Shown here piece by piece: positions 7,735-40,050 of a DNA stretch of 64,000 bases (its first letter is position 1; the number at the start of each line of letters is the position of its first letter). The DNA is taken from contig NZ_QNSE01000005.1 of NCBI RefSeq assembly GCF_003315485.1, positions 248,001-312,000 of the forward strand, given 5' to 3'. Under the pieces are notes generated by a model. It made no database searches and was not told the DNA's origin. It saw only the letters and a program-made list of their open reading frames with translations. Made by a program: the position numbers and the translations under genes. This stretch comes from Marinomonas rhizomae (lineage in GTDB: Bacteria > Pseudomonadota > Gammaproteobacteria > Pseudomonadales > Marinomonadaceae).

Positions 7735-8805
7735 ATGAAGCTCCAACACTCGCCTAAGAAACAACTTAACTCAGCATCAATGCCTCCCACACTGTTTCGT
7801 AAAATGCTTGTTGTCGCTATTTTAGGTTTCAGTGCAATTTGGGGGATCGACTTGTCGAGTGGCATCATAGCTTCCTTTGATGCTGCAGCTTACCCAATTT
7901 GCATCAGTGCTTTTGCTCTTATTTACCTCCTTAGCGTCATCACTAAAATCAATAATCAAAGCCTACACTTCTTCGCCTATTTTATTATTGCTGGTTATCT
8001 AATTAGCACAAGTATTTGGCATCACATGGATGCCAACGGCTTATTTTCAAATGCAGCACAATGGCTAGGACTGAATTACGTCATTGCCTACCTCTTTCTG
8101 GAGGTCAAAAAAGCAGCGCCTACCACTATCCTTGTCTTTGTTGTCACCGTCATTGGGCATTTCTCCGCCGTCATACAAAATCATAATATGGCCGATACTA
8201 TGGGAGTTGTACTTAACATTGCCATCGCACACATGATCTATATATTTTTGTTATGGACTATTATTAAGTTAAGAGTCAAAACCGACCAAGTCATAGAGCA
8301 TGCTGATACACTCGAGAATTATGCTTATGTTGACTTACTCACCCGAGCATTAAACCGACGAGGAATTGAAAAGGTATTTAACGAGCTTGATCTAGATTCA
8401 GTAGAACAAAAGAAAAATTACGCAATACTCATCATCGATATTGACCATTTCAAGCAGTTCAATGATATCAACGGCCACCTTGTGGGAGATGAAGTACTTA
8501 CCCGCATCTCAGGCAAACTCAGCAGAACAATTCATCCAAATGACGTTCTTGGACGCTGGGGTGGCGAAGAATTTATCGTACTTACTTTGAATCGAACGCC
8601 ACAGCAAGTAATGGCTCTAGCCGAAAACCTAAGAGCGGCGGTCAGCAATCTTGTCATAGATACTATCTCCAATATTACTGTGAGTATTGGTATAGGGTAC
8701 TCCCATGAAGCCTCTTCAAAAGAAGCCGTGTTCAAAATCGCAGATGAACACCTTTATATTGCCAAACAATCCGGCCGAAATACCATTCATGCAAATCACT
8801 TTTAG
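7735..8805 (+). CDS. Integral-membrane diguanylate cyclase (GGEEF)
   Basis: A 356-residue protein with about six hydrophobic segments in the first 180 residues, no periplasmic domain of note, and a C-terminal GGDEF domain. The catalytic motif is RWGGEEF near residues 273-279, and DIDHFKQFND and YAKQSG-like end motifs are intact, so it should make c-di-GMP. At the I-site position the sequence is HPND: the aspartate is kept but the arginine is replaced by histidine, so product inhibition is probably weakened. The membrane part resembles the multi-helix sensors found on many small marine GGDEF proteins; its ligand is unknown. Confidence 0.88.
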   Translation: MKLQHSPKKQLNSASMPPTLFRKMLVVAILGFSAIWGIDLSSGIIASFDAAAYPICISAFALIYLLSVITKINNQSLHFFAYFIIAGYLISTSIWHHMDANGLFSNAAQWLGLNYVIAYLFLEVKKAAPTTILVFVVTVIGHFSAVIQNHNMADTMGVVLNIAIAHMIYIFLLWTIIKLRVKTDQVIEHADTLENYAYVDLLTRALNRRGIEKVFNELDLDSVEQKKNYAILIIDIDHFKQFNDINGHLVGDEVLTRISGKLSRTIHPNDVLGRWGGEEFIVLTLNRTPQQVMALAENLRAAVSNLVIDTISNITVSIGIGYSHEASSKEAVFKIADEHLYIAKQSGRNTIHANHF

Positions 8806-9215
8806 CGCTAACCTTCTGCACTAACGCTTTCGCTATCAACGAAACGACGAATATATTCACCCTACATAAGACGCCAACTTCCAAGTCACCATAAAGAAAG
8901 TAAAACACGGAAACCTTATTGATATATAAGGTTATTTATATTTTTTATTGCTCTAAATTCCATACCAATTGCTTATTCGCAATTAAGCACAGAAAGCGCC
9001 CCACTCTCTATGATTAACCTTTCCTCAGCCGCCAGAAAATACTTCCTTAACGAAATTAAACCATTAAATAGTCAAAATAATAGGATGAAAAAATCTATTA
9101 ATTCACTGTAAAATTATTGTAAGGTTACAAAAATACACGTAAGATTTACGATAAATACTACACAGTAATAATCTTGGAATGACAAAATAAAAATACCAAA
9201 AAAGGAATAAAAAGC
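8806..9215. other. 410-base intergenic region with weak hairpins
   Basis: A+T-rich with no gene. AACCTTAT (8912-8919) pairs with ATAAGGTT (8926-8933) and is followed by a T-rich run to 8948, making a weak terminator for the cyclase gene. A second small inverted repeat, AATTGC/GCAATT, lies at 8968-8984. The promoter of the next gene should be in the last 150 bases. Confidence 0.4.
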
Positions 9216-28542: not shown

Positions 28543-29526
28543 TTAGTACTTAGTTCGATAATGAGAAGGAGGAAATGAGTGCTGTCTGGCCCAAAGTCGA
28601 CGAAACTGCCTTGGATCGTCGAAGCTACAACGCTCTGCGACCTCTTCTATAGGCAGAGCAGAGCTTTGTAAAAGTTACATTGCTAAAGCAAGGCGCAGTT
28701 TATGGATATATTCTCGTGTCGTCACTCCGGCGCTTTCTTTAAACAAACGCACGAGATGTCGCGGACTGCACTGGGCAACAGCTGCCAAGCTCTCTAATGA
28801 CCAATTGCGTGCAGGGTCTACCTGAATCGCATCTTGCACACGGTGTACGCTTTGATGGAAATGATTGCGGTTTTCTAACCAAGGAGACTGGCTCGGATCA
28901 TTTGGGCCTCGACGAGAAAACAGCACCATATGAAGTGCCTCTTGACTCGCACAATTCGCTCCACATTCCTGCTGTATCAAATACAGAACTAAATCAATAC
29001 CAGCCGTCACACCAGCACTGCTATAAAAGTCACCATCTACGGCAAACAACCGATTAGCGAGCACCTTGGCAGTAGGCTCTATTTCTTGAAGTTCGTCGAG
29101 ATGCATATGATGAGTGGTACAGGCTCGACCCGCCAGCAGTCCTGCTTTTACAAATAATAAAGTCCCAGCAAAAATACTAATATAACGTCCAATACAGCTG
29201 GCTTTTCGGCCTAACCAGCCTATCGCAGCTTCCATAGCAGGTGTTTCTAAATCAATACGATTCCCCGACAGTCCGGTACTAACGACCCAGCTGTTAGCCA
29301 CCATAACATCAGGTAAAGACTCGACTTGAATATTCAAACCTAACGTATTTTCAACCATTGTTTCAGGACCAACAAAATGCAATTCAAATTACCTTTGCCC
29401 CTCAAACTCAGCGCCTGATACAAAACGATTGCTATATTGAAAAGCCTCAGCAGGGCCAATCGTATCCAGCAAAACACTGTTTGGCAGCATGATAAAATAG
29501 ACATGAATTTTAGCAATCGCGGACAC
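28543..29526 (-). pseudogene. GlxA-type AraC regulator with two in-frame stops
   Basis: One continuous frame runs from GTG 29526 (MSAIAKIHVYFIMLPNSVLL, with AGAGG upstream) to TAA 28543-28545, 328 codons, the usual GlxA-family length. It is interrupted by TAA at 29389-29391 (codon 46) and TAA at 28675-28677, which splits the second HTH after RLALAM. Flanking residues on both sides of each stop are good family sequence: a DJ-1/PfpI-like domain (about 5-190), then the AraC HTH with the second half reading LPIEEVAERCSFDDPRQFRR. The second stop probably arose from CAA (Gln). No frameshift is needed. The gene is almost surely non-functional unless the stops are read through. Confidence 0.85.
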
Positions 29527-29527
29527 A

Positions 29528-30426
29528 CTATGCCTCTTTGAAGATTATTTTTAACTGAGAAAAAAGCCGAGCGCCAAAGGTATTAACCAACAAACCGATC
29601 AATACAAAACACACACCAATCCATTGTAATGGTCATAAGCTCTCATCCAATATTATTGCCGCAAAGGTCAAACCCACGACAGGAACCCCTAAGGTCAACG
29701 GCGTAACCTGACTCGCAGGATAACGGCCCATCAAATATCCCCACAGAGAATAGCCTACAATCGTCGCCACCAAGGCAAGATAAACCAAAGCGTCAATAGA
29801 AACCCAGCTCATACCAAGTAACGCCGATTGCATCAACTCAGTCCCTTCCATCAACCAAGAGCATACAAAGAAAGGCAATGGTGGCACCCAAGCGCTCCAA
29901 ATAACCAAGTTCACATTCACCGAGTAGTCTGACTCATGGTGCGAGTACTAATATTCCCCAGCGCCCAGCTCGCTGCGGCGAACAAGGTTAGAATAAACCC
30001 AAACAGCGTCATATCGCTGACACCAGACACCACGGTAATCATCAGCAAACCACTGCCCGCTAAAGCAATCGCCAACACTTGATGCAAACGCACACCTTCT
30101 TTCAAAAACACCAACGCAAATACCATGGTAAACAACGCCTGAGACTGCAATACCAAAGAAGCCAAGCCAGCGGGCATACCATTCGCCATCGCCATAAACA
30201 AAAAGGCGAACTGCATAAAACCCATTGGTAGTGCATATACACACCACCACTTCAGCGGAATGTTAGGCCGTTTCACCAACAAACACCCGATCGCCGCCAC
30301 TGCTAGAAATCGCAGTCCACCCAATAGCAAAGGCGGCACTTCGCCAAGGCCAAAAGAAATCACCACAAAGTTTAATCCCCAAGCGAGGATAATCACCAGA
30401 GCCAAAATACTGTCTTTGAACGTCAT
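29528..30426 (-). pseudogene. eamA: Degraded eamA (cysteine/O-acetylserine exporter type)
   Basis: Strong similarity to E. coli EamA along its length: start MTFKDSILALVIILAWGLNF at 30426, MPAGLASLVLQ, SWALGNI, NLVIWSAWVPP, ATIVGYSLWG, LDESL. Two lesions are visible. Near 29918, after SQTTR, the frame shifts (CGGTGAATG), most simply a one-base deletion, and coding resumes as VNVNLVIWSAW. At 29633-29635 a TGA interrupts LDESL-PLQWIGVCFVL, after which frame continues to TAG 29528-29530. The last bases overlap the start of the GlxA-like pseudogene, so the two were probably one operon. DMT fold, ten helices when intact. Confidence 0.85.
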
Positions 30427-30777
30427 AATGCCTACCACCAATAAATTTGATATAAGCATTATAAAAAGACAATTAACGAGAAACGAGGACAGACCCTAGG
30501 GTCAAAAAGGACATATCAAATTTCAGAGTCACTGGCCGCTTAGGCTAAATAATTTCGCCAGTCTAAGTACACGACAATTAGGCCCCCATAACGCAATATG
30601 ACTTACAGCAGAACAAAAACACTTGACTGCTTAGACTGTTGAAACAAAAAATGAGAAATACAGAGGTGACCAATACAATCAAAGAGGATAAGATTTATTA
30701 TCTAGTGTGCGATTTGAAGTGCCCGTTTTTTAATTAATCATATTAACTATTTTAAACTATGTGTAAGGAATCCTGTT
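30427..30777. other. Intergenic region at the left border of the A+T-rich region
   Basis: No gene. Base composition changes here from moderate G+C on the left to A+T-rich on the right. A ribosome site (AAGGAA near 30763) precedes the TTG start of the next gene. I see no tRNA or clear attachment-site repeat. Confidence 0.4.
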
Positions 30778-32106
30778 TTGAGTTATGAAAACTTTTCGGA
30801 TGTAACACAACCGCCACCAAAGACTCAGGATCTAGGAATATTATTACGTCACTTCATCACTTTTGCAGGTATTTCCTCCAGTGAATATGCCGCTCTAACT
30901 GTAAAGCTTACTAGAGGAGTATCCAGATCTAGAGCAATATCAGAAGATAGTTTTAAAGATTATGTTTACAAAGGTAAATTTCCAAATAGTTATGGGAGGA
31001 ATACTATCAAGCTACTTTTCGAAAGAGCTTGTGATGAGTCTGTTAAGCAGTTATGGATAGATGCATTCTCTGAAATTGAAAATATAAAGTCTTTAAATAA
31101 GCTGAATTATAAGCAAGATGAACCAGAAATAAATCATGCACCACAAGAACTAGAGTTTAACGATAAAGAAGCGTCTAAATTTGATCATTATAAACCCAAA
31201 TTCAGCTCTAAATTACTAATTTTGACTCTCATCGTATTATTATTTTTTGTTTTTATTATATTAGTTATGGTAAATAATGAAAGAAAAAATATTGCTAGTC
31301 CTTTTACTAACCCAACACCTCTTAATATAAATAATAATTCTTATATTGCGAATCAAAAAATAGAAAAAAGTAATCTTGATGAGGTTATAAAAGAGCCGAT
31401 AGTCCATTCTACAAATAATCATATCGATACTCCAACGCCAGTATATCTAAAACAAGATACTACTGAAGAAAAAAGTATGGATAATGCAGTCCAAGAACCT
31501 ATGAAAAAAAATATTGATAATGGCTTTCACCCTATAGTTTTATCCAAAGGGCTTTCATTAGATGTCTACTCCCTTGGAAAAAACAAATACAAACACTTAC
31601 CATCAACACCAGAAGGTTTGCAGGTGGCAACATTGCCCTTTAATAAGGGAGGTTACTTTACCTTTATTGATCATATGGTTGACAAAAACATAGCTAGGGC
31701 CACGGTTGATCGAGATGTAGGGTTATATTATCAAGGTTTTATCAATTTAACTGGCGATGGTGAATTCATCTTTCAACTTGACTATAAATCTGGCTACCAC
31801 TTTGTAAATCAGCTCTTAAAAAAATGTCGACTTGTATTAAAAGTCAATAACTCGCCCCTTTTTGACAACATAGTCAAAGTAGGCCAAGGTCAATCCTATA
31901 GTATGCAGAATACTGGCATATTTTCTAACGGAGCAGCCCCATTTAGCTTCTGGTTTACTTGCAATAATTTGAGAGGTTTTTCGCCAAAACAAGATTACAA
32001 AGCTTTTAAAGACACATCAGTCACACTGTATCTAAAGCAACCAGATGACAATGGAATATTAAAAATCACACCCGATCTATTTTCTTATGATCCGGATAAA
32101 AACTAG
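30778..32106 (+). CDS. Single-pass membrane protein with possible PA14-like C-terminal domain
   Basis: A 442-residue protein I cannot name. The N-terminal 140 residues are cytoplasmic and charged (LTRGVSRSRAISEDSFKDYV gives a vaguely HTH-like impression). One membrane helix lies at about 143-165 (KLLILTLIVLLFFVFIILV). A low-complexity Asn/Thr/Pro linker runs to about 245, and the last 190 residues form a compact outer domain. The segment VGLYYQGFINLTGDGEFIF plus LVLKVNNSPLFDN follows the PA14 pattern of a strand pair and ligand-exposed loop; this is a weak call. The start is TTG with AAGGA 9 bases upstream. The gene is A+T-rich, unlike its left neighbours, which suggests transfer. Confidence 0.6.
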   Translation: MSYENFSDVTQPPPKTQDLGILLRHFITFAGISSSEYAALTVKLTRGVSRSRAISEDSFKDYVYKGKFPNSYGRNTIKLLFERACDESVKQLWIDAFSEIENIKSLNKLNYKQDEPEINHAPQELEFNDKEASKFDHYKPKFSSKLLILTLIVLLFFVFIILVMVNNERKNIASPFTNPTPLNINNNSYIANQKIEKSNLDEVIKEPIVHSTNNHIDTPTPVYLKQDTTEEKSMDNAVQEPMKKNIDNGFHPIVLSKGLSLDVYSLGKNKYKHLPSTPEGLQVATLPFNKGGYFTFIDHMVDKNIARATVDRDVGLYYQGFINLTGDGEFIFQLDYKSGYHFVNQLLKKCRLVLKVNNSPLFDNIVKVGQGQSYSMQNTGIFSNGAAPFSFWFTCNNLRGFSPKQDYKAFKDTSVTLYLKQPDDNGILKITPDLFSYDPDKN

Positions 32107-32136
32107 ATGGTTGAGAGTATTTTCCTCTCAACCATC
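32106..32136 (+). terminator. Perfect hairpin after the membrane-protein gene
   Basis: GATGGTTGAGAG (32106-32117) pairs over 12 bases with CTCTCAACCATC (32125-32136) across a 7-base loop, starting at the stop codon. It has no T run, so it may act as an RNA-stability or weak terminator structure. Confidence 0.55.
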
Positions 32137-32149
32137 TCGACTCTATTCG

Positions 32150-32332
32150 CTAGAAAATACGTGAATAGGGACGCTTATAGGACATAATGTCCTTCCACAG
32201 AGAGTGGCAAGAACAACTAGGCACGTAGTCAAATGACAGCAAGCCCGTTTTACGATGCTGGTCGATCAACTCTAAAATAATGGGGTTGCAGTTATCACAG
32301 TTGGACGGCCCAGCGATGGAAGGCGTGTGCCA
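32150..32332 (-). pseudogene. Unidentified gene remnant with paired cysteines
   Basis: On the minus strand a 60-codon frame ends at TAG 32150-32152 and reads like real protein: GPSNCDNCNPIILELIDQHR followed by KTGLLSFDYVPSCSCHSLWK. Upstream a TGA at 32333-32335 interrupts continuing sense-like sequence (LVVIDGRS before WHTPSIAG). The CxxC and CxC pairs look like metal ligands. I do not recognise the family. Nearby lies a perfect palindrome AGGACATAATGTCCT at 32179-32193. It is probably the tail of a decayed accessory gene. Confidence 0.3.
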
Positions 32333-32622
32333 TCAACTCCGCCCATCAATAACGACAAGGCTTTCTTTTCAGCTTCTTATACCACCTCTAAAATGGTCCA
32401 CAGCCATGATGCTGGAAGCTTACCTATCAAAAATTTTTCTCCAACTTTGTGCTTTTTGGTACAAAAGAACAAGAAGACGAAAACTTTATAAGCAATTGAT
32501 TTTAAAGTGATTATTTAAATAATTACACTCTTCTCACCTTCCACTCACACTTCTGACCAACTGCAAAACTGCTTTCTATCAAAAAAGATACATTCTCCTT
32601 TACATAGAGCTCGGAGAATTAA
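32333..32622. other. Non-coding leader region of the acyl-synthase/methyltransferase gene
   Basis: A short open frame on plus (32280-32510) has no ribosome site and overlaps the remnant; I do not call it. The last 100 bases should hold the promoter of the next gene. A direct repeat ACTGC-N3-ACTGC occurs near 32560. No lux-box-like 20-base palindrome was seen. Confidence 0.35.
32592..32619 (+). promoter_or_regulatory. Hairpin that would mask the ribosome binding site
   Basis: ATTCTCC (32592-32598) is complementary to GGAGAAT (32613-32619), whose GGAG is the Shine-Dalgarno 6 bases before the start at 32623. Folding would hide the site and could regulate translation of the synthase-like gene. 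Confidence 0.5.
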
Positions 32623-33894
32623 ATGACTCAAGTTACAAACATGCTACAAGCCCAAGAGAACACCATTAAATCAGTTGAAGAAAAAATACTCAGTCAATTA
32701 CCAAGCGGTATTCACTTAGCACAAACACAAGAGGAAATTCAGGCTATTATTAACCTTAGAAAAAATTTCTATCAGGATGACAGAGATGAAGTAAAAGCCT
32801 TCCATGATGATGGTTTAGATACATCGGGGTATGTGTTTTACAGCATGGATTCAAATGGCAGTATAACGGCGACCGTCCGTTTATTGTTAGATTCTCAACG
32901 AGGTTTCCCTGAAGAAGAATTTTTACCAGAATCAGTACATCAGATGAGGAAAACAGGGAAAGTATTTGCAGAGTTAGGTCGACTACTCATTTTGGAACAT
33001 CAGAGTACACAATTACCTTTGCTCTACAAGGTAGTCTACGATGTCGCTCATATTTTAAATGTGGATGCTATTCTTATCGTTATGAAGAAAAATAACTACT
33101 CATCCCATCAAAAAATTATGGAAGTAAAAATATTATCAGAAGAAATGGGACTTAGCTGGGACAAAGAAAAAGCGACACTATGTTTAGTTGAGTGGGATAT
33201 TAAGGCCCCTCAGGATAAATTCTACAAACTTGCCAATCGATCCATAGATCACAAGTTTCGTAAAAAAATGTGGGATCAGTACAGCACCTATCATTTAGGG
33301 GTATGCACGTCCGTGCAACATGAAGTTTATAGTGACATAGCATCTAAGGTAAAGGGTCATATCTTAGATCTAGGCTGTGGAACAGGTCGAATAATGGGTT
33401 TCATTCAAGAAAACCCTCATTCGCTTAGCTATACTGGGATTGATGTTAGTAAAGGAATGATTGAACTAGCCACAGAACTTAAAGATAGATTAGCCTATAA
33501 GCAAGCCAATCTCATTATATCCAATATAGAAAAAATTGAAGGAAAGTACGACACTATCGTTTCTACTCTTAGTTATTATTGCTGGCATAACAAAGAACTA
33601 TGCTTAAACCATATAAAAGGCATGCTTTCTGAAAATGGAATATTTTTTCTAGTCACTCCAAATAATGAATTTGACAAAGAAAAGCTAACTCGATTAGTTA
33701 TAAGGGATTCTTTCGGACACCCATACTTAGATAAATTCCTCTCGTTTAATTTTGATATTGCTGAAAAGGCGAAATACCCAACTCTAGACGAGTTAATTAA
33801 GCAAGTAAGAAAGGCGGGCTTCTCTATAATTTCCGCACATAGCAACTTTTTTCTTGGAGGTGTTTCATGTTTAGAGTTAAAAACCTCACTATAG
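32623..33894 (+). CDS. LuxI/FeeM-like acyl synthase fused to SAM methyltransferase
   Basis: A 423-residue two-domain protein. Residues 30-205 look like the acyl-ACP-using autoinducer synthase/FeeM fold: LRKNF (Arg46, Phe49), HDDGLD (Asp63, Asp66), a TVRLL strand (Arg86) and ELGRLLI (Glu117, Arg120). These line up with the Arg, Phe, Asp-Asp, Arg and Glu-x-x-Arg positions conserved in LuxI proteins. Residues 210-420 are a class I SAM methyltransferase with motif I LDLGCGTG (249-256) and YTGIDVSKGMIELA. Inferred product: an N-acylated small molecule that is then methylated. Its last bases converge on the LuxR-type gene; both stop codons lie in one CTATAG. A+T-rich, in the accessory region. Confidence 0.7.
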   Translation: MTQVTNMLQAQENTIKSVEEKILSQLPSGIHLAQTQEEIQAIINLRKNFYQDDRDEVKAFHDDGLDTSGYVFYSMDSNGSITATVRLLLDSQRGFPEEEFLPESVHQMRKTGKVFAELGRLLILEHQSTQLPLLYKVVYDVAHILNVDAILIVMKKNNYSSHQKIMEVKILSEEMGLSWDKEKATLCLVEWDIKAPQDKFYKLANRSIDHKFRKKMWDQYSTYHLGVCTSVQHEVYSDIASKVKGHILDLGCGTGRIMGFIQENPHSLSYTGIDVSKGMIELATELKDRLAYKQANLIISNIEKIEGKYDTIVSTLSYYCWHNKELCLNHIKGMLSENGIFFLVTPNNEFDKEKLTRLVIRDSFGHPYLDKFLSFNFDIAEKAKYPTLDELIKQVRKAGFSIISAHSNFFLGGVSCLELKTSL

Positions 33895-34632
33895 ATATTC
33901 ATCTATATTAATAGTTCCAAGCATATACATCAGTTCATTTGTTGATATGCCCCCGAACTCTTCTCTAATGTTAAGTAAAAGTTTTTCCGCGTAGCGACGG
34001 CTTATAGGATAATGGTGCTCGATCTCTGTTAAGGCTTCTCCGTTTAACAGGTGTTTGAGCACCATTATTTTTTTTGCCGTAAATGTCTCTAACAGTGGAG
34101 CAATAAAAAAACGAAGATCTTCTTTAGATTCCATCACTTTATAGTGATAAGACCTAGATAACCTCTCCAGATCAACCATAGATGATACTTTTAAGTCTTT
34201 AAAATATTGACTTTCAGTTTTTTTTGTAATTACTGAAATTCCTGCTATCGCAAACTTCCCATAAAATATGGGTACAGATAAACCGTTAGAAATACCAAAT
34301 TTTTCTTTCGCATCTACCGTTACATTTTTTTCTTCTCTCGTTACGTTCCCCAAACTTATCTCTTCCCACCAATCAATAGGTGTCCTTCTGCCTTGACTAG
34401 CCAACCTCAAGACGAAATCTCTATTACCGTAATCATTCTTGATATAATACTGAACAAATGAAGAGAAGCCTTCAGAAAAGTGCAACACAGGTTGAACTGC
34501 AGAATTCAAATACATTGGTCTTGGGTAGAACGAATAAAGGACAGCATCAAAACCGATTTTTTCAATTTCATCGGTCAGATTCTCAAAACTATCACTAAAG
34601 CAACTGGCAAAACTTGTCTTACTCACATCCAT
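33889..34632 (-). CDS. LuxR-type regulator with autoinducer-binding domain
   Basis: A 247-residue regulator. Residues about 15-165 have the pattern of the autoinducer-binding domain of LuxR proteins: VQYYIKNDYGNRDFVL, TPIDWWEE, then KFGISNGLSVPIFYG and AGISVI. The C-terminal 65 residues (FTAKKIMVLKHLLNGEALTE, then YPISRRYAEKLLLNIREEFG) align with a GerE/LuxR HTH, but several usual positions differ (for example no TVxxHL), so it is divergent. Convergent with the acyl-synthase/methyltransferase gene with a shared end, which makes it the likely receptor for that enzyme's product (inference). Confidence 0.78.
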   Translation of the reverse strand: MDVSKTSFASCFSDSFENLTDEIEKIGFDAVLYSFYPRPMYLNSAVQPVLHFSEGFSSFVQYYIKNDYGNRDFVLRLASQGRRTPIDWWEEISLGNVTREEKNVTVDAKEKFGISNGLSVPIFYGKFAIAGISVITKKTESQYFKDLKVSSMVDLERLSRSYHYKVMESKEDLRFFIAPLLETFTAKKIMVLKHLLNGEALTEIEHHYPISRRYAEKLLLNIREEFGGISTNELMYMLGTINIDEYL

Positions 34633-35008
34633 ATTTATCTTCTCAAAATGATCTAAAAATTCGCTTTATCTTGACCTAAATAAATTTCGGGTATAGATCA
34701 ATCTTCAATCTGAAAGACTTCAGCAGTTAGCTTATCTTTGGGAAATAGAGTGACATATACCTATAAAACAACTTTTCTTACCAATCCCGTATCCATCTAC
34801 ACATCAAAAAATACGCTCCAAATGTAAAGAAAGAGTAATTTCCTACATTGTCAGAATAAGAAAATATATTCAATATCTGGAAAATGCTCATTGCTTAGCC
34901 AACAGGCATATTGTAGGAATAACTCATAGCTACCAATCAGTTAAGAGAGTTTTTTTGTATGTGAATATGCTTTATATCAAATTCATAAATAAGAAGGAAT
35001 ATATAGAA
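34633..35008. other. Intergenic region between luxR-type and traT-like genes
   Basis: A+T-rich divergent region of about 375 bases. It contains the palindrome CTGAA-AGAC-TTCAG near 34710-34723, a candidate regulatory site on the luxR side. No gene is called; the frame upstream of the traT-like ATG has no ribosome site. Confidence 0.4.
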
Positions 35009-35782
35009 ATGAATAGCACTCTTAAAATTGGCATAATTTCTGCGGTGTTGTATACATTAGTCGGTTGTTCTGCCGTAAACACCATGGCCAAAAAGCAAGA
35101 CTTATCCGTTGAAACTCGTCTGAGCCATTCCATTGTTTTAGAGCCAGTCTCTCCTTCAAAACGCATAGTATATGCAAGAGTTCGAGACGTTAGCGGCAAC
35201 CAAATGCGTAAAGATATGCAGAAAAAAATTGTGGCTCATCTTCAAACCGAAGGTTTCACCGTCACCGAAGATCCTACAAAAGCAAATCTAATGCTAAATG
35301 CAACCATTCTTTCAGCCAGCAAAATGACAGCGGACGAAGTAAGCAGATCACTTTCAAGCGGCTACAAAGGTGCAGCCGAAGGCGCACTTATTGGCGGAGG
35401 ACTTACGGCTATTACAGGCGGGTCAAATTCTGACGCTCTAAAAGCTGGTGCACTGACAGCGGTAGGAGGCTTTTTAGCTGATGCCTTTGTTGAAGACGTT
35501 TATTACACCTTCATAATGGATGTTGAGCTACGAGAAAGACCTCTGGAAGGTGATTCCATCGAAAATTCGAAAAAGAGTATCAGCGCAAAAGGTATGAGCG
35601 GTCAAAACGCAGCTAACTTAACCGTAGCCAAGAGCTCTGTTGAACGTGGTGAAAACTATAAATGGATCACATACGAAACTCGTATCGTCACCACTGCCAA
35701 TCAAATGAATCTAAAAATTGAAGAAGCAATTCCAGCTGTACAAGACAAAACTGCTTACAGTTTGTCTGAAATGCTACTTTAA
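35009..35782 (+). CDS. traT: TraT-like outer-membrane lipoprotein
   Basis: A 257-residue lipoprotein clearly related to TraT of F-type plasmids, the surface-exclusion and complement-resistance protein. Lipobox LVGC gives Cys20. Hallmarks are MAKKQDLSVETRLSHSIVLE, SGYKGAAEGALIGGG, a central glycine-rich hydrophobic stretch, ADAFVEDVYYTFIMDV and the end motif NQMNLKIEEAIPAV. I start at ATG 35009 (AAGGAA upstream), not at the earlier in-frame ATG 34955. No tra genes are near, so it is a chromosomal or island-borne homologue rather than part of a transfer operon. It precedes a set of envelope genes. Confidence 0.88.
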   Translation: MNSTLKIGIISAVLYTLVGCSAVNTMAKKQDLSVETRLSHSIVLEPVSPSKRIVYARVRDVSGNQMRKDMQKKIVAHLQTEGFTVTEDPTKANLMLNATILSASKMTADEVSRSLSSGYKGAAEGALIGGGLTAITGGSNSDALKAGALTAVGGFLADAFVEDVYYTFIMDVELRERPLEGDSIENSKKSISAKGMSGQNAANLTVAKSSVERGENYKWITYETRIVTTANQMNLKIEEAIPAVQDKTAYSLSEMLL

Positions 35783-35795
35783 TAGTCCCATCTCA

Positions 35796-35831
35796 AAGTA
35801 GGTTTCGAGTTTTTAATATTGAAGCCTACTT
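35796..35831 (+). terminator. Hairpin after the traT-like gene
   Basis: AAGTAGGTTTC (35796-35806) pairs over 11 bases with GAAGCCTACTT (35821-35831), including one G-U pair. No clear T run follows, so read-through into the next genes is possible. Confidence 0.5.
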
Positions 35832-35855
35832 AACTTAAAAATTAGAGAAATTATT

Positions 35856-36203
35856 ATGTTTGTAGTTATTCTGTGGATTGCATTTGCTATTTTAGTCGGC
35901 CTTCTCGCAAGTACAAAAGGCCGATCTGGTTTTTTGTTTTTCTTACTGGCATTAGTCCTATCACCTGTAATTGGACTAATCATTGCGCTGGTCGTTCCCA
36001 AAAACAATGAGATAGTTGAATCTAAAGCGATAGAAACGGGTGGCATGAGGAAATGCCCAAACTGTGCGGAACTTGTAAAATCAGAAGCAAAAATATGTAA
36101 ACACTGTCAGTCTGATTTAAATAATACAGTGACAAATGAAATGAAAATCAAAGAAAATAAATTATCTAAAAAAATAGATTCATCTACAGATATTGATTTA
36201 TAG
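35856..36203 (+). CDS. Small membrane protein with zinc ribbon
   Basis: A 115-residue protein. Two membrane helices occupy residues 2-18 and 28-47. A zinc-ribbon follows: CPNCAELVKSEAKICKHCQ, with two CxxC pairs at about 67-70 and 82-85. The tail is charged. Such helix plus zinc-ribbon proteins are common and of unknown function. Only 3 bases separate it from the next gene, so they are co-transcribed. Confidence 0.7.
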   Translation: MFVVILWIAFAILVGLLASTKGRSGFLFFLLALVLSPVIGLIIALVVPKNNEIVESKAIETGGMRKCPNCAELVKSEAKICKHCQSDLNNTVTNEMKIKENKLSKKIDSSTDIDL

Positions 36204-36206
36204 GTA

Positions 36207-36800
36207 ATGAAAATGAAAATTTATCTGAAAATATGTATCTTTCTATTATTATTAATCGCCACAATAGAACTCACAATCGATATTAAAGAAAATCATCAAC
36301 TCTACTGGAGCTCTTTGTACATTAAAGCAGCCGCTCTATCATTTTTTTTCTTCTCCTTCCTTAAATTTAGAAAAAACATTCCTTTATTTATTTTTTCTTG
36401 TATTTTAATGTTTTCATTTGAAATAAATGATCTCTTAATGGCAGCTAATAATTTATCTCAACAAATAATAGACAACCCCAAAAAAAATGTTGCGAAATCA
36501 ATTTATCTAATCACTCCATTGATAATAGCATCATTCTATATAATTTTATCTTTATCTAGAATTAGACCTGGATTTGTGACTAAAACAAAAACAATCATCA
36601 TATTATCGGCCTCATTTTTATTAATAAGATTAACAATCAACGGCATAGCATTGAAATCAAAATTAGAAAATCCTGACTTTTATTGGAACAATATAAATTA
36701 TTATAGTTATATATTTAATAGCGTTCTATGGGCATCTATAGATATTATATTTATTGGCTTCCTATTCTTTTATCTATCCAAGTTAAAAAAACATGAATAA
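36207..36800 (+). CDS. Hypothetical polytopic membrane protein
   Basis: A 197-residue protein with five to six hydrophobic segments spread along its length and no recognisable family. A+T-rich with many Ile and Leu codons of the ATA/TTA type, unlike core genes in this window. It overlaps the next gene by 8 bases, so translation is coupled. Confidence 0.6.
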   Translation: MKMKIYLKICIFLLLLIATIELTIDIKENHQLYWSSLYIKAAALSFFFFSFLKFRKNIPLFIFSCILMFSFEINDLLMAANNLSQQIIDNPKKNVAKSIYLITPLIIASFYIILSLSRIRPGFVTKTKTIIILSASFLLIRLTINGIALKSKLENPDFYWNNINYYSYIFNSVLWASIDIIFIGFLFFYLSKLKKHE

Positions 36801-37560
36801 AATCATCTTTATCATTCCTATTTTTTTATTTTCTTCTGTAGGAAACTCTAGCAATTATCACGCAGGAAATTACCCCAGGTTCTCCAACGCCATTATATGG
36901 CCATCCGGGGAGTCTGTTTCCGCGCGAGCTAATAATGTGTCTAGAGCTATCGAAAGAGCTGACGCAATCCCACTAAGCGATACCTACAGGCTTAAAGAAC
37001 TAAGCCAGTATCTATTTCCAAGCTCTGTGTATGGTGACAGTTATTTGCAAAATAAACTGGCTTCCGATGGCTTCACTCAAGCTCTTGGCAATGTGGTAAA
37101 ACAGTTTGGCTGTGCAGAATACCGGTTTAGACACGACTTACCTGAATCAACAGGCTGCCTAAATGGATCCTCGAATCAAAAAGAGGCCATGCCCTTTGTA
37201 TCAGGACAATTTACTAGTAATCGAATAGAGAGCTTCATTGACGACCAAAGCAACAATATCAACTTCCATGCCTATCTAAAAAGCACAAATGAGAGAAGCC
37301 TCGACTCCGCTTTTGGTAGCGTACACGAGTTAGGTACATTTTTTGGCAGACTAGCGGGTAGGCAAAGCCTTGTTCTGAGTATTGACTTACAAACCTACCA
37401 ACTTAATGCCAATGGTTTTCGTGGAGACAAGATCAACAAAAAACCTTATACCTATTTTTTGATCCTACCTAAAGCTACAGATATTTCTAAACAAGCCAGC
37501 CAAGAAGAAGCAGGGGGATTTTCAAAGAGTCGCTCTAGGATACTTATTTTGAATAAGTAA
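36793..37560 (+). CDS. Hypothetical exported protein
   Basis: A 255-residue protein with a signal peptide (MNKIIFIIPIFLFSSVGNSS). The mature part has two Cys (CAEYRF and GCLNG), likely a disulfide in the periplasm, and no domain I recognise. It lies in the middle of the envelope gene set, coupled to the membrane protein before it. Confidence 0.6.
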   Translation: MNKIIFIIPIFLFSSVGNSSNYHAGNYPRFSNAIIWPSGESVSARANNVSRAIERADAIPLSDTYRLKELSQYLFPSSVYGDSYLQNKLASDGFTQALGNVVKQFGCAEYRFRHDLPESTGCLNGSSNQKEAMPFVSGQFTSNRIESFIDDQSNNINFHAYLKSTNERSLDSAFGSVHELGTFFGRLAGRQSLVLSIDLQTYQLNANGFRGDKINKKPYTYFLILPKATDISKQASQEEAGGFSKSRSRILILNK

Positions 37561-37649
37561 ATTGAATTTTATAATCATGACCTTACACTCTTGTTAGTAT
37601 ATTATTTTTACGATATCTTTACATTTCTAGTTTGATAGGAAACGCCTAA

Positions 37650-38729
37650 ATGTGGCGTTGTCAAGATATGGATAATCACTTGAAAAAAATTATATATCTT
37701 AGCGTATTAACTATTTTAGTGTCTGCATGCGCCTCAAAAAACCATACAACTCCTGCTTCTGTAATACCTATTGAAGAAGTTGCACCTCCCCAAAAAACAG
37801 AAACTCACCTTTCAGTAAAAGATGAGTCTACAGCAGAAAAATTAGGGTTTTACGAAAAAGAGTCTGGTAGCACCGCTGTAAATTTTGCATTCACAGAAAG
37901 TACAGCTATTTCTAAAGATCAATTGGACTCTGAAGTTATTAATAAAACAGTATCTTTTATAGACAAAAATCTTGAATTTATTAGATACAGTTTTGGTAAA
38001 AACAACTCTATTTATGTAGCTGATTTTTCAAATGCATTAATGTTCGATTATAGAAAAAGCAGCGTTAGAAACTCAGATCAGAGTTTATTGGGTAACTTTT
38101 CTAGACTATATGGCTCTGCAGCTTTTGGAAAGTATCTTTATATTATTGGCCACACAGATAGTGATGGAAGTGCATCGTATAACTATGGATTGAGTGCAAG
38201 GCGCGCACGTTCTGTCGCCTCTATTCTAATTGATAATGACGTTGATGGATCAAAATTAAGCATTGTTCCGGCTGGTGAATATTTACCTAAAGTATCGAAT
38301 AGTACCAATGAAGGAAAGCAACAGAATCGCAGAGTGGAAGTGATCTCTGCAGATAGTCGAGCACTCATTCAATCTTACCTTCGACAGCTAAAATGTCCTC
38401 CTAATGAACGCTGCCAAAGAAAAATACTCAATATCTTTGATGTCCGAAAAGTGGGTGCCAATACAGAAATGAACATCAAGAACCCGTATTCGCTTGCAAT
38501 CCATTCTCCTGAACTAAATAACTTAATTCAACTTGATGAATCACTTAGAGAGAATCCTGATTTTTTAAATACTAAACCATTAAGTTTAAATGATGAACGA
38601 AATCTAATCGAGATGGGTGAATTACGACAAAACCTTCTAATTGAAATTGATATAAGACCTGTTCTTAGGTTAGCAATACAAAAACGAGCGGGCTTTCACA
38701 TCCCTAAAAAATATATAATCAAAGACTGA
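37650..38729 (+). CDS. OmpA-domain lipoprotein
   Basis: A 359-residue lipoprotein. The signal ends at LVSAC (Cys near 27 from this start, 21 from the alternative ATG at 37668). The OmpA C-terminal peptidoglycan-binding domain occupies about 125-235 (IIGHTDSDGSASYNYGLSAR, RRVEV), and a further 125-residue region of unknown type follows. AGGA 9 bases upstream favours ATG 37650; the ATG lies in the loop of a small AACGCC/GGCGTT hairpin (37641-37659). Seven bases before the coiled-coil membrane gene. Confidence 0.8.
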   Translation: MWRCQDMDNHLKKIIYLSVLTILVSACASKNHTTPASVIPIEEVAPPQKTETHLSVKDESTAEKLGFYEKESGSTAVNFAFTESTAISKDQLDSEVINKTVSFIDKNLEFIRYSFGKNNSIYVADFSNALMFDYRKSSVRNSDQSLLGNFSRLYGSAAFGKYLYIIGHTDSDGSASYNYGLSARRARSVASILIDNDVDGSKLSIVPAGEYLPKVSNSTNEGKQQNRRVEVISADSRALIQSYLRQLKCPPNERCQRKILNIFDVRKVGANTEMNIKNPYSLAIHSPELNNLIQLDESLRENPDFLNTKPLSLNDERNLIEMGELRQNLLIEIDIRPVLRLAIQKRAGFHIPKKYIIKD

Positions 38730-38736
38730 GGTTTTT

Positions 38737-40050
38737 ATGGAAGAATTAAAGCGATCAATAGAGAAACTTATTAATGAGTCTCCTGTTGATGAAGCAACGA
38801 GACATCATGACAAGTCTCATATCTCACACCTTGTAGATGAAGACATAAGCGAAGTCAATTCATCAAAAGTGCTACATACAGATAAATATTATCGTACACA
38901 TAGGATTGAAGAGGCTGCCATTGGAAGTATTAAAGATAAACTCGGGCGCTGGGCAAATCAGCGTAATGATATAGTACTTAAGGCTAAAGGTATCATTGCT
39001 AAACAGTCGAACTCAGAACTAGATATAAAAAAGCGTAAACTAACTGAAGAAATGGAAGATACGAAGTCAAAAGCGAAAGACTCGTATATGCGCAACAATA
39101 ACTACGCTGATTTAAAAGCAAATTTTGATGGTACTAAAAGACGCTATGAGGATATGCGCGCAGAGCTAGGTGGGAAGCCTCCTATTACAAGCCGAATCTG
39201 GCTATACATAATAGGAATAGCTCTTATTGGCTTTATTGAGTGGTTCGTAAACTACTCTACTTTCAGCACAAAGTATCCTCCAGGCATAGCTTTTGGTGCC
39301 ACAGTATTAATTGCACTTTCAATTGCTTTAGCATCTCATTTTCATGGTGGGTTATTAAAACAGAGATTATCTCTTTTTGCTAAACATAGAAAGAAAGAAG
39401 AAAAACGACAAATCATAATAAAGCAATCTTTTTTTTCTTTGCTATTAATTATTTCTCTTATAGTAGTAACCTATAATAGATATGACATATTGGCTGCCAA
39501 CGTTATTGAGTCGGGTGGCATCAGCTTAGCAGGAATAGATGAAAAAACAGAATCAATTATAGGTGTTTTAATACAGTTTGTTTTATTAAATATACTAGTA
39601 TGGATTGTTGGTGTTGCTATTTCATATTTTATTCATGATCCTCGACCAGACTATCAAGAGGCCTTTAAGCATTATGAACACGCAAAAGTGAAATTTTATA
39701 AAGCAGACAAAGGGTTACAAGAAGAAATTGAGAGGATAGGAGAAAGTTTTGAAGAACAGCTTAAAAAAATAACAAACTCTCTTGCTAGTCATCAAACAGA
39801 TATAAAAGATATATCCAACCTACTTGACCGATTAGTAGCAAAAGAGGCAAGCCTTATAAAGCAAGCCTCAACGTCGATAAATAATATGTTAGAAAAGCAT
39901 CACTCAATGTTAATTACTGAATTTAATACTAAGTCAATGTTTGATGTGAAAATCGGTCCTGATGCATTATCCGTTGACGAATTTAAGACTAAATCGATTT
40001 CTGTAGATAGCAATTTTGTTCGTCATACACTCTCTTTGGAGGTGATTTAA
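38737..40050 (+). CDS. Coiled-coil protein with four membrane helices
   Basis: A 437-residue protein of unknown function. Residues 1-145 are hydrophilic and partly coiled coil, four membrane helices lie at about 152-172, 183-203, 228-248 and 277-300, and a second coiled coil covers 310-395. Both ends are likely cytoplasmic. It does not show the MotA/ExbB motifs, so a Zorya-like motor reading is not supported. It is coupled to its neighbours by gaps of 7 and 1 bases, which argues that the three products work together. Confidence 0.65.
   Translation: MEELKRSIEKLINESPVDEATRHHDKSHISHLVDEDISEVNSSKVLHTDKYYRTHRIEEAAIGSIKDKLGRWANQRNDIVLKAKGIIAKQSNSELDIKKRKLTEEMEDTKSKAKDSYMRNNNYADLKANFDGTKRRYEDMRAELGGKPPITSRIWLYIIGIALIGFIEWFVNYSTFSTKYPPGIAFGATVLIALSIALASHFHGGLLKQRLSLFAKHRKKEEKRQIIIKQSFFSLLLIISLIVVTYNRYDILAANVIESGGISLAGIDEKTESIIGVLIQFVLLNILVWIVGVAISYFIHDPRPDYQEAFKHYEHAKVKFYKADKGLQEEIERIGESFEEQLKKITNSLASHQTDIKDISNLLDRLVAKEASLIKQASTSINNMLEKHHSMLITEFNTKSMFDVKIGPDALSVDEFKTKSISVDSNFVRHTLSLEVI

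Follow-up and report, generated by a model that had tools for sequence, protein, structure and literature searches.

The window, a 64,000-nucleotide stretch of Marinomonas rhizomae DNA, contains two convergent genes whose 3′ ends share 6 bp (Table 1). One encodes a synthase domain and a methyltransferase domain in a single protein (the fusion), and the other encodes a LuxR-type receptor. The fusion of Marinomonas arctica strain 328 is 80% identical to the window fusion along its entire length, and genome G006 matches the window at 80% identity for the fusion and 86% for the receptor. The upstream 442-aa ORF adjoins the fusion in three Marinomonas convergent loci (48% identity in L023, 26% in L024) and may be a target of transcriptional control by the receptor. 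The score of the palindrome upstream of the fusion was equalled in 12 of 500 shuffles. A conserved operator was not found, and there was no match of at least 16 positions upstream of the L023 fusion.

Table 1. Coordinates of the genes and features of the locus within the window
Feature	Position	Strand	Details
Synthase/methyltransferase fusion ORF	32623-33894	+	423 aa
FeeM-type N-acyl amino acid synthase domain (by profile), N-terminal	32623..33237	+	Fusion residues 1-205
Class I SAM-dependent methyltransferase domain, C-terminal	33238..33894	+	Residues 206-423; stop codon included
LuxR-type receptor ORF	33889..34632	-	247 aa; PF03472 E 1.9e-11
Autoinducer-binding domain of receptor	34159..34587	-	PF03472 and pocket residues
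Divergent GerE-like helix-turn-helix region of receptor	33913..34083 (limits approximate)	-	Family profile; helices in model
442-aa ORF upstream of fusion	30778..32106	+	Candidate target; without Pfam match over cut-off
Palindrome, 18-of-20, upstream of fusion	32507..32526		Weak candidate operator

The GC content is 35.3% in 30778-40050 compared to 43.5% in the rest. The left edge of this AT-rich stretch (28675-30459, - strand) holds two partial genes: one for an FtrA-like AraC regulator, which matches its profile over positions 58-277 of 327, and one of the cysteine-exporter-like EamA kind, which covers positions 1-170 of 299. Just behind the receptor gene is a gene for a TraT-like outer membrane lipoprotein (34955-35782, + strand; PF05818, E 1e-58) that is kept in G006.

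Synthase and methyltransferase domains

The Pfam FeeM model (PF21926) matches residues 69-174 of the fusion (32827-33144; E 5.1e-13; 49.5 bits, cut-off 27). The match is partial, covering profile positions 34-142 of 158 and leaving the first 33 unmatched. Of the 22 synthase domains in alignment A5, the same model matched 20 at 1e-3, all except the two from Pseudoalteromonas. A profile of 22 synthase domains searched against the PDB sequences matched FeeM (2g0b, E 9.3e-7) and no LuxI structure up to E 1. The LuxI model PF00765 was absent from the Pfam results for the window protein and for the synthases of related loci, and a PF00765 search of the window's own genome matched at G000:C8 only and not at the fusion. 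Fold searches with the model of the fusion returned lists filled by matches to its methyltransferase domain. By profile, the synthase domain is of the FeeM kind and not LuxI-like. FeeM is described in PMC9654057, as excerpted, as structurally similar to the acyl-homoserine lactone (AHL) synthases without sequence similarity to them.

Residue conservation was scored in alignment A9, 22 synthase domains that leave out Pseudoalteromonas, L107, and L110 and include the lone synthases L113 and L114. The conserved positions in the first half are R46 (17/22), Y/F50 (21/22), D63 (21/22), D66 (17/22), and R86 (19/22), and those in the second half are D90 (21/22), P96 (22/22), R109 (21/22), E117 (22/22), and R/K120 (22/22). 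Position 120 is Arg in 17 domains and Lys in 5, and it is Gln in FeeM in the alignment of the profile with 2g0b. E117 aligns with a Glu of FeeM 2g0b, as does the D-x-x-x-G-x-P stretch with its counterpart; the active-site Glu of FeeM is given as Glu94 in the excerpted text of PMC9654057. The domain thus shares with the FeeM synthases a Pfam match over the cut-off, the aligned active-site Glu, and D-x-x-x-G-x-P. The Pseudoalteromonas fusions (L022:7731-8966 and L066:10109-11344) keep the methyltransferase and the receptor, but their synthase domains in A5 are without the Glu and Arg of E-x-x-R and had no FeeM match at 1e-3. The residues of these domains suggest either an altered substrate or a loss of activity.

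The C-terminal domain of the fusion is Rossmann-type with a SAM motif, as in class I SAM-dependent methyltransferases. The Pfam matches are to class I methyltransferase models, the best being Methyltransf_31 (PF13847; residues 244-349, E 2.4e-17). The structure model of the fusion has a pLDDT of 92.6 and a pTM of 0.66, the latter making the placement of the domains less certain. The sequence and fold matches of the methyltransferase domain include the N- and C-methyltransferases BamL/BpumL, NodS, NovO, and CouO and the carboxyl methyltransferases ChlM and JHAMT (activities in part by entry title). O-, N-, and C-methyltransferases are matched alike, so neither sequence nor fold tells the site of methylation.

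These results bear on an earlier note, made from the DNA letters alone, that had proposed a LuxI/FeeM-type acyl synthase fused to a SAM methyltransferase. The fusion stands, with PF13847 C-terminal to the FeeM domain in one ORF. The family assignment holds for FeeM (PF21926, 2g0b) and fails for LuxI, with PF00765 absent and no LuxI structure matched. The LuxI/FeeM residue pattern that the note described is present and conserved in A9, except that in the window synthase Tyr50, not the adjoining Phe49, is the aromatic residue conserved behind the Arg.

The receptor and its relatives

Pfam Autoind_bind (PF03472) matches residues 16-158 of the receptor (44.1 bits against a cut-off of 23; E-value in Table 1) and all 20 aligned receptor relatives, which bears out the LuxR-type ligand domain read in the convergent gene. 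The Pfam GerE model is unmatched in the window receptor and matches 2 of the 20 relatives at 1e-3. The receptor family profile aligns to the helix-turn-helix regions of RhlR, TraR, FixJ, and NarL, and the receptor model (pLDDT 86.6) has helices in this region. The model aligns along its length with QscR, LasR, RhlR, and SdiA, and the best Foldseek match is QscR 6cbq (E 7.5e-9). Full-length TM-scores against these four are 0.4-0.5 because the two domains are differently placed.

The pocket register was taken from the alignment of TraR with the receptor family. F59, Y63, D72, F73, and W88 of the window receptor correspond to TraR W57, Y61, D70, P71, and W85. The positions of TraR Y61, D70, and W85 are invariant in the 20 aligned receptors. 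The W57 position is Phe in 16 and Tyr in 4, and Phe, Ile, or Tyr occupies the P71 position. In TraR, W57 contacts the lactone carbonyl, and these pocket residues have roles in lactone and amide binding. With Y61, D70, and W85 kept and W57 replaced, the pocket looks suited to N-acyl amides and altered at the lactone contact in the aligned members.

A canonical LuxI is encoded elsewhere in the same genome (L115, G000:C8:138682-139194; PF00765, E 4e-21), convergent with a canonical LuxR (PF03472, E 8e-22; GerE, E 8e-14). This LuxR, the sole canonical one compared, has Trp and Asp-Pro at the positions of TraR W57 and D70-P71. The ORFs adjoining the pair are ABC transporter-like by eye, and PF00765 was matched in 1 of 48 Marinomonas genomes. 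The window locus resembles LuxI/LuxR in having synthase and receptor genes together, an autoinducer-binding domain in which Tyr, Asp, and Trp correspond, and a receptor model of two domains. It differs in a synthase that is not LuxI by profile, in the added methyltransferase, and in the divergent helix-turn-helix region. By these comparisons the three-part module (synthase, methyltransferase, and receptor) would work like LuxI/LuxR without being a member, since its synthase does not pass the LuxI profile test and its receptor is without the lactone Trp.

Relatives of the receptor also occur away from any module. In the gammaproteobacterial family f120, 58 receptor-profile matches were listed, 17 in modules and 41 outside. 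We fetched 34 of the 41 (L117-L150), the 7 left out being mostly fragments, with about 4 kb of flank on each side and less at contig ends. A synthase was found in the fetched flank of none of the 34, and a methyltransferase, weakly matched, in one. The extra receptors are intermixed with the module receptors in the tree, and 31 of the 34 also have Phe or Tyr at the W57 position, so this signature belongs to the whole receptor branch. They look like LuxR solos by sequence, and the branch is therefore not exclusive to the module. At 7 of the 34 loci the common neighbors are small helix-turn-helix proteins or a 202-208 aa protein with helix-turn-helix and Ig-like (N_BRCA1_IG) domains. The 202-208 aa proteins are 51-63% identical to one near the L100 module.

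Related loci and pairing

Related loci were searched with synthase/methyltransferase queries (proteins and profiles), and the three parts were then sought with their own profiles in wider stretches. Receptor adjacency was not built in because the queries were without the receptor. In Marinomonas, 3 of 48 genomes matched (E up to 1e-20). The module is also present on replicons of Pseudoalteromonas sp. NC201 and P. piscicida 2515, and in genome G185, which belongs to another family of the same order (1 of 6 genomes of that family). In f120, the synthase is present in 16 of 63 genomes. The module is rare outside these lineages, as judged from the order, class, and phylum samples, which gave 2 of 390 (single-protein query, 1e-15), 2 of 369 (1e-20), and 1 of 398 (1e-20) genomes, respectively, the window's own genome included each time and being the only one in the phylum sample. 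A plasmid search with the fusion returned the two Pseudoalteromonas replicons and a Vibrio methyltransferase, and the receptor query returned the same two Pseudoalteromonas places only. No viral contig matched in the single-protein scan. A viral fragment from an alignment scan was set aside because it matches methyltransferase residues 243-297 only. An Aliarcobacter plasmid synthase-like gene (L067), whose fetched stretch matched neither methyltransferase nor receptor, and the long FeeM-family ORFs L061-L065, without methyltransferase or receptor, were likewise rejected.

Counting two near-identical Pseudoalteromonas loci as one, there are 23 loci with synthase and methyltransferase from Marinomonas, Pseudoalteromonas, and two further gammaproteobacterial families. 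The two parts are fused in 9 (the window, L022, L023, L024, L025, L097, L098, L099, and L102) and are separate neighboring genes in 14 (L059, L060, L100, L101, and L103-L112). A receptor adjoins them in 22 of the 23: it is convergent with them, follows them in tandem, or precedes them in tandem. In L060, one opposite-strand ORF (8292-9134) lies between methyltransferase and receptor. The L107 synthase was taken from the profile search, since the ORF filter of the locus comparison hid it. Some modules are damaged: the L024 receptor is missing its N-terminus at an IS66 transposase ORF, the L104 receptor is split in two ORFs, and the L110 synthase is broken. L112 has synthase and methyltransferase without an adjoining receptor, and L113 and L114 are synthases of the same branch without either partner adjoining. 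The genomes of L112, L113, and L114 each have a receptor elsewhere. A small N_BRCA1_IG-type protein is encoded near L113 (by Pfam) and near L114 (52% identical to that of L113).

The best 30 FeeM loci from the phylum sample (101 of 398 genomes match) served as a control, with about 1.5 kb on each side. Within this distance none of the 30 had a receptor, and methyltransferase matches numbered 2. The module thus differs from these FeeM loci in a synthase domain that is joined to or adjoins a methyltransferase and in the receptor alongside. At L045:2368-3144 and L048:329-1123, in two f262-family genomes, a methyltransferase gene lies near an ordinary FeeM gene, and the flanks hold no LuxR-type gene. 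These two loci are possible sources of genes for making N-acyl amino acid methyl esters. Among the 25 loci compared, each neighbor family was seen in 6 at most, so the module is not part of a larger cluster common to the loci. Genes for NACHT, STAND-like, or AAA ATPases lie near some modules (L025:3810-7046, L097:10110-12008, L107:932-2239, and L022:10126-13068). A defense link of the NACHT/STAND neighbors was rejected: PADLOC matches were weak and partial and limited to 3 of 9 proteins, those at L025 and L097 among them, and there were none for those at L107 and L022.

Receptor and synthase also coincide by genome. A receptor-profile search (E up to 1e-10) found the same 3 of 48 Marinomonas genomes as the synthase search, with four receptors at four fusion loci (3/3 synthase genomes compared to 0/45 others, p 6e-5). 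In f120, the receptor is present in 16/16 synthase genomes compared to 19/47 others (Fisher p 1.1e-5). The profile was made from module receptors, which favors finding module receptors in both counts. The pairwise distances of synthase, methyltransferase, and receptor correlate with r of 0.862, 0.850, and 0.858 over 18 modules and 0.77-0.81 over 15 modules (three near relatives removed), values that are inflated by the common descent of the genomes. Among 10000 permutations, none attained the observed correlation in any of these cases. The distances exclude five of the 23 modules: L024 and L104, whose receptors are broken; L107, whose synthase ORF is unsettled; L110, whose synthase is broken; and L112, which has no adjoining receptor.

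The three modules of genome G1168 have 22-46% synthase identity among themselves, whereas for each of them synthase, methyltransferase, and receptor are all nearer to those of a module in a different genome. The nearest genomes are G492 (same genus), G1177 (another genus), and G1162 (another genus and family, Marinomonas). One G1168 module is 47-51% identical to the window module despite the different genome family. This pattern suggests that the module was transferred whole, and the low GC of the window region agrees with that. Tentatively, the module may travel as a unit among gammaproteobacterial families, with orphan receptors of the branch listening in.

The earlier note had claimed a synthase-methyltransferase with its own receptor as a pair distinct from LuxI/LuxR and had suggested a genome survey for the gene pair. 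The survey found the receptor adjoining in 22 of 23 loci, and this neighborhood, the fused and split forms, the genome co-occurrence, and the mirrored divergence sustain a distinct pair. Two parts of the claim have to be loosened. The fusion is not essential (14 of 23 loci are split), and receptor relatives occur without a neighboring synthase (all 34 extra loci fetched).

Proposed signal and alternatives

We consider it probable that the locus is a cognate quorum-sensing module with a methylated N-acyl amino acid signal, whatever the site of the methyl group. Judging by its family, the FeeM-type domain would use acyl-ACP as donor and acylate an amino acid on its amino group. The methyltransferase would then use SAM to methylate the N-acyl amino acid, most simply on the free carboxylate. 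The predicted product would be an uncharged, diffusible N-acyl amino acid methyl ester that the LuxR-type receptor would bind above a threshold, changing transcription. The logic of such a module would be that of LuxI/LuxR with different chemistry, and it would be self-contained. We infer the product, its substrates, the methylation site, ligand binding, the response of the receptor, and the target genes. Counted against a strict pair are the 34 extra receptor loci, with no synthase in the fetched flank, and the Pseudoalteromonas synthase without key residues. The lone synthases L113 and L114, the receptor-less locus L112, the lack of a conserved operator, and the inactivity of published NAMEs on AHL-type LuxR receptors also weigh against the proposal.

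A methyl ester made by a SAM methyltransferase is common to this proposal and to PhcB/PhcS, in which such an enzyme makes a 3-hydroxy fatty acid methyl ester signal. The PhcB/PhcS signal has no amino acid part and its sensor is a two-component histidine kinase, whereas the receptor here is LuxR-type. The predicted product would belong to the same class as the NAMEs, for which native methyl esters are described in the excerpted text of PMC6296433. NAMEs have been reported from Alphaproteobacteria, and the module here is gammaproteobacterial. The passages of PMC6296433 that concern their activity describe the published NAMEs as inactive on AHL-type LuxR receptors, and the same excerpts mention FeeM-type products as suspected signals. 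The NAMEs were known compounds with a synthase gene still unidentified in 2024, as stated in the excerpts of PMC11580390.

Within the preferred reading, the carboxylate is a tentative choice for the methyl group, and a cognate pair with the methyl elsewhere (on N, C, a hydroxyl, or the amino acid itself) takes a somewhat smaller share of the probability. The methyltransferase matches N- and C-methyltransferases as well as carboxyl ones, and the methyltransferase of the planctomycete stieleriacine cluster is similar to a tyrosine C3-methyltransferase (PMC7293339, in excerpt). Nothing separates the sites from one another; the replacement of W57 by Phe or Tyr in 20 of 20 receptors fits a lost lactone contact only. 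A different view is that the enzymes form a secondary-metabolite or lipid unit making a surfactant-like or antimicrobial N-acyl amino acid and that the LuxR-type gene senses something else. The 30 FeeM relatives without a receptor alongside would fit such a unit, as would the minor antimicrobial activity of NAMEs described in the excerpts of PMC11580390. The view is unlikely given that receptor and enzyme divergence are mirrored, same-genome paralogues included, that the acyl-ligand pocket residues are conserved, and that the neighbor families, in at most 6 of 25 loci, form no shared larger cluster.

Canonical AHL signaling by a divergent LuxI with an added methyltransferase is very improbable. 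The structural similarity of FeeM to AHL synthases (PMC9654057, in excerpt) is in its favor, but PF00765 is absent, the synthase profile found no LuxI structure, none of the 20 aligned receptors has the lactone Trp, and the same genome carries a true LuxI/LuxR pair elsewhere. The AT-rich region and the presence of the fusion in only 3 of 48 Marinomonas genomes could also point to unrelated genes that are chance neighbors in a variable island. An association in 22 of 23 loci, across several lineages and with differing orientations, makes this reading barely credible.

The closest published relatives of the proposed cognate module include the stieleriacine clusters, in which N-acyl amino acid synthase and methyltransferase genes are likewise clustered. 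They differ in a methyltransferase that resembles a tyrosine-ring enzyme, and the excerpts of PMC7293339 mention no cognate LuxR-type receptor. A search of open PMC papers found neither a description of the module nor a dedicated receptor for FeeM-type products. If the methyl ester reading is true, the module would provide the first genes for NAME-like compounds and a signaling role for such compounds. A parallel to the textbook LuxI/LuxR system based on methylated N-acyl amino acids would add to the signal chemistry known so far.
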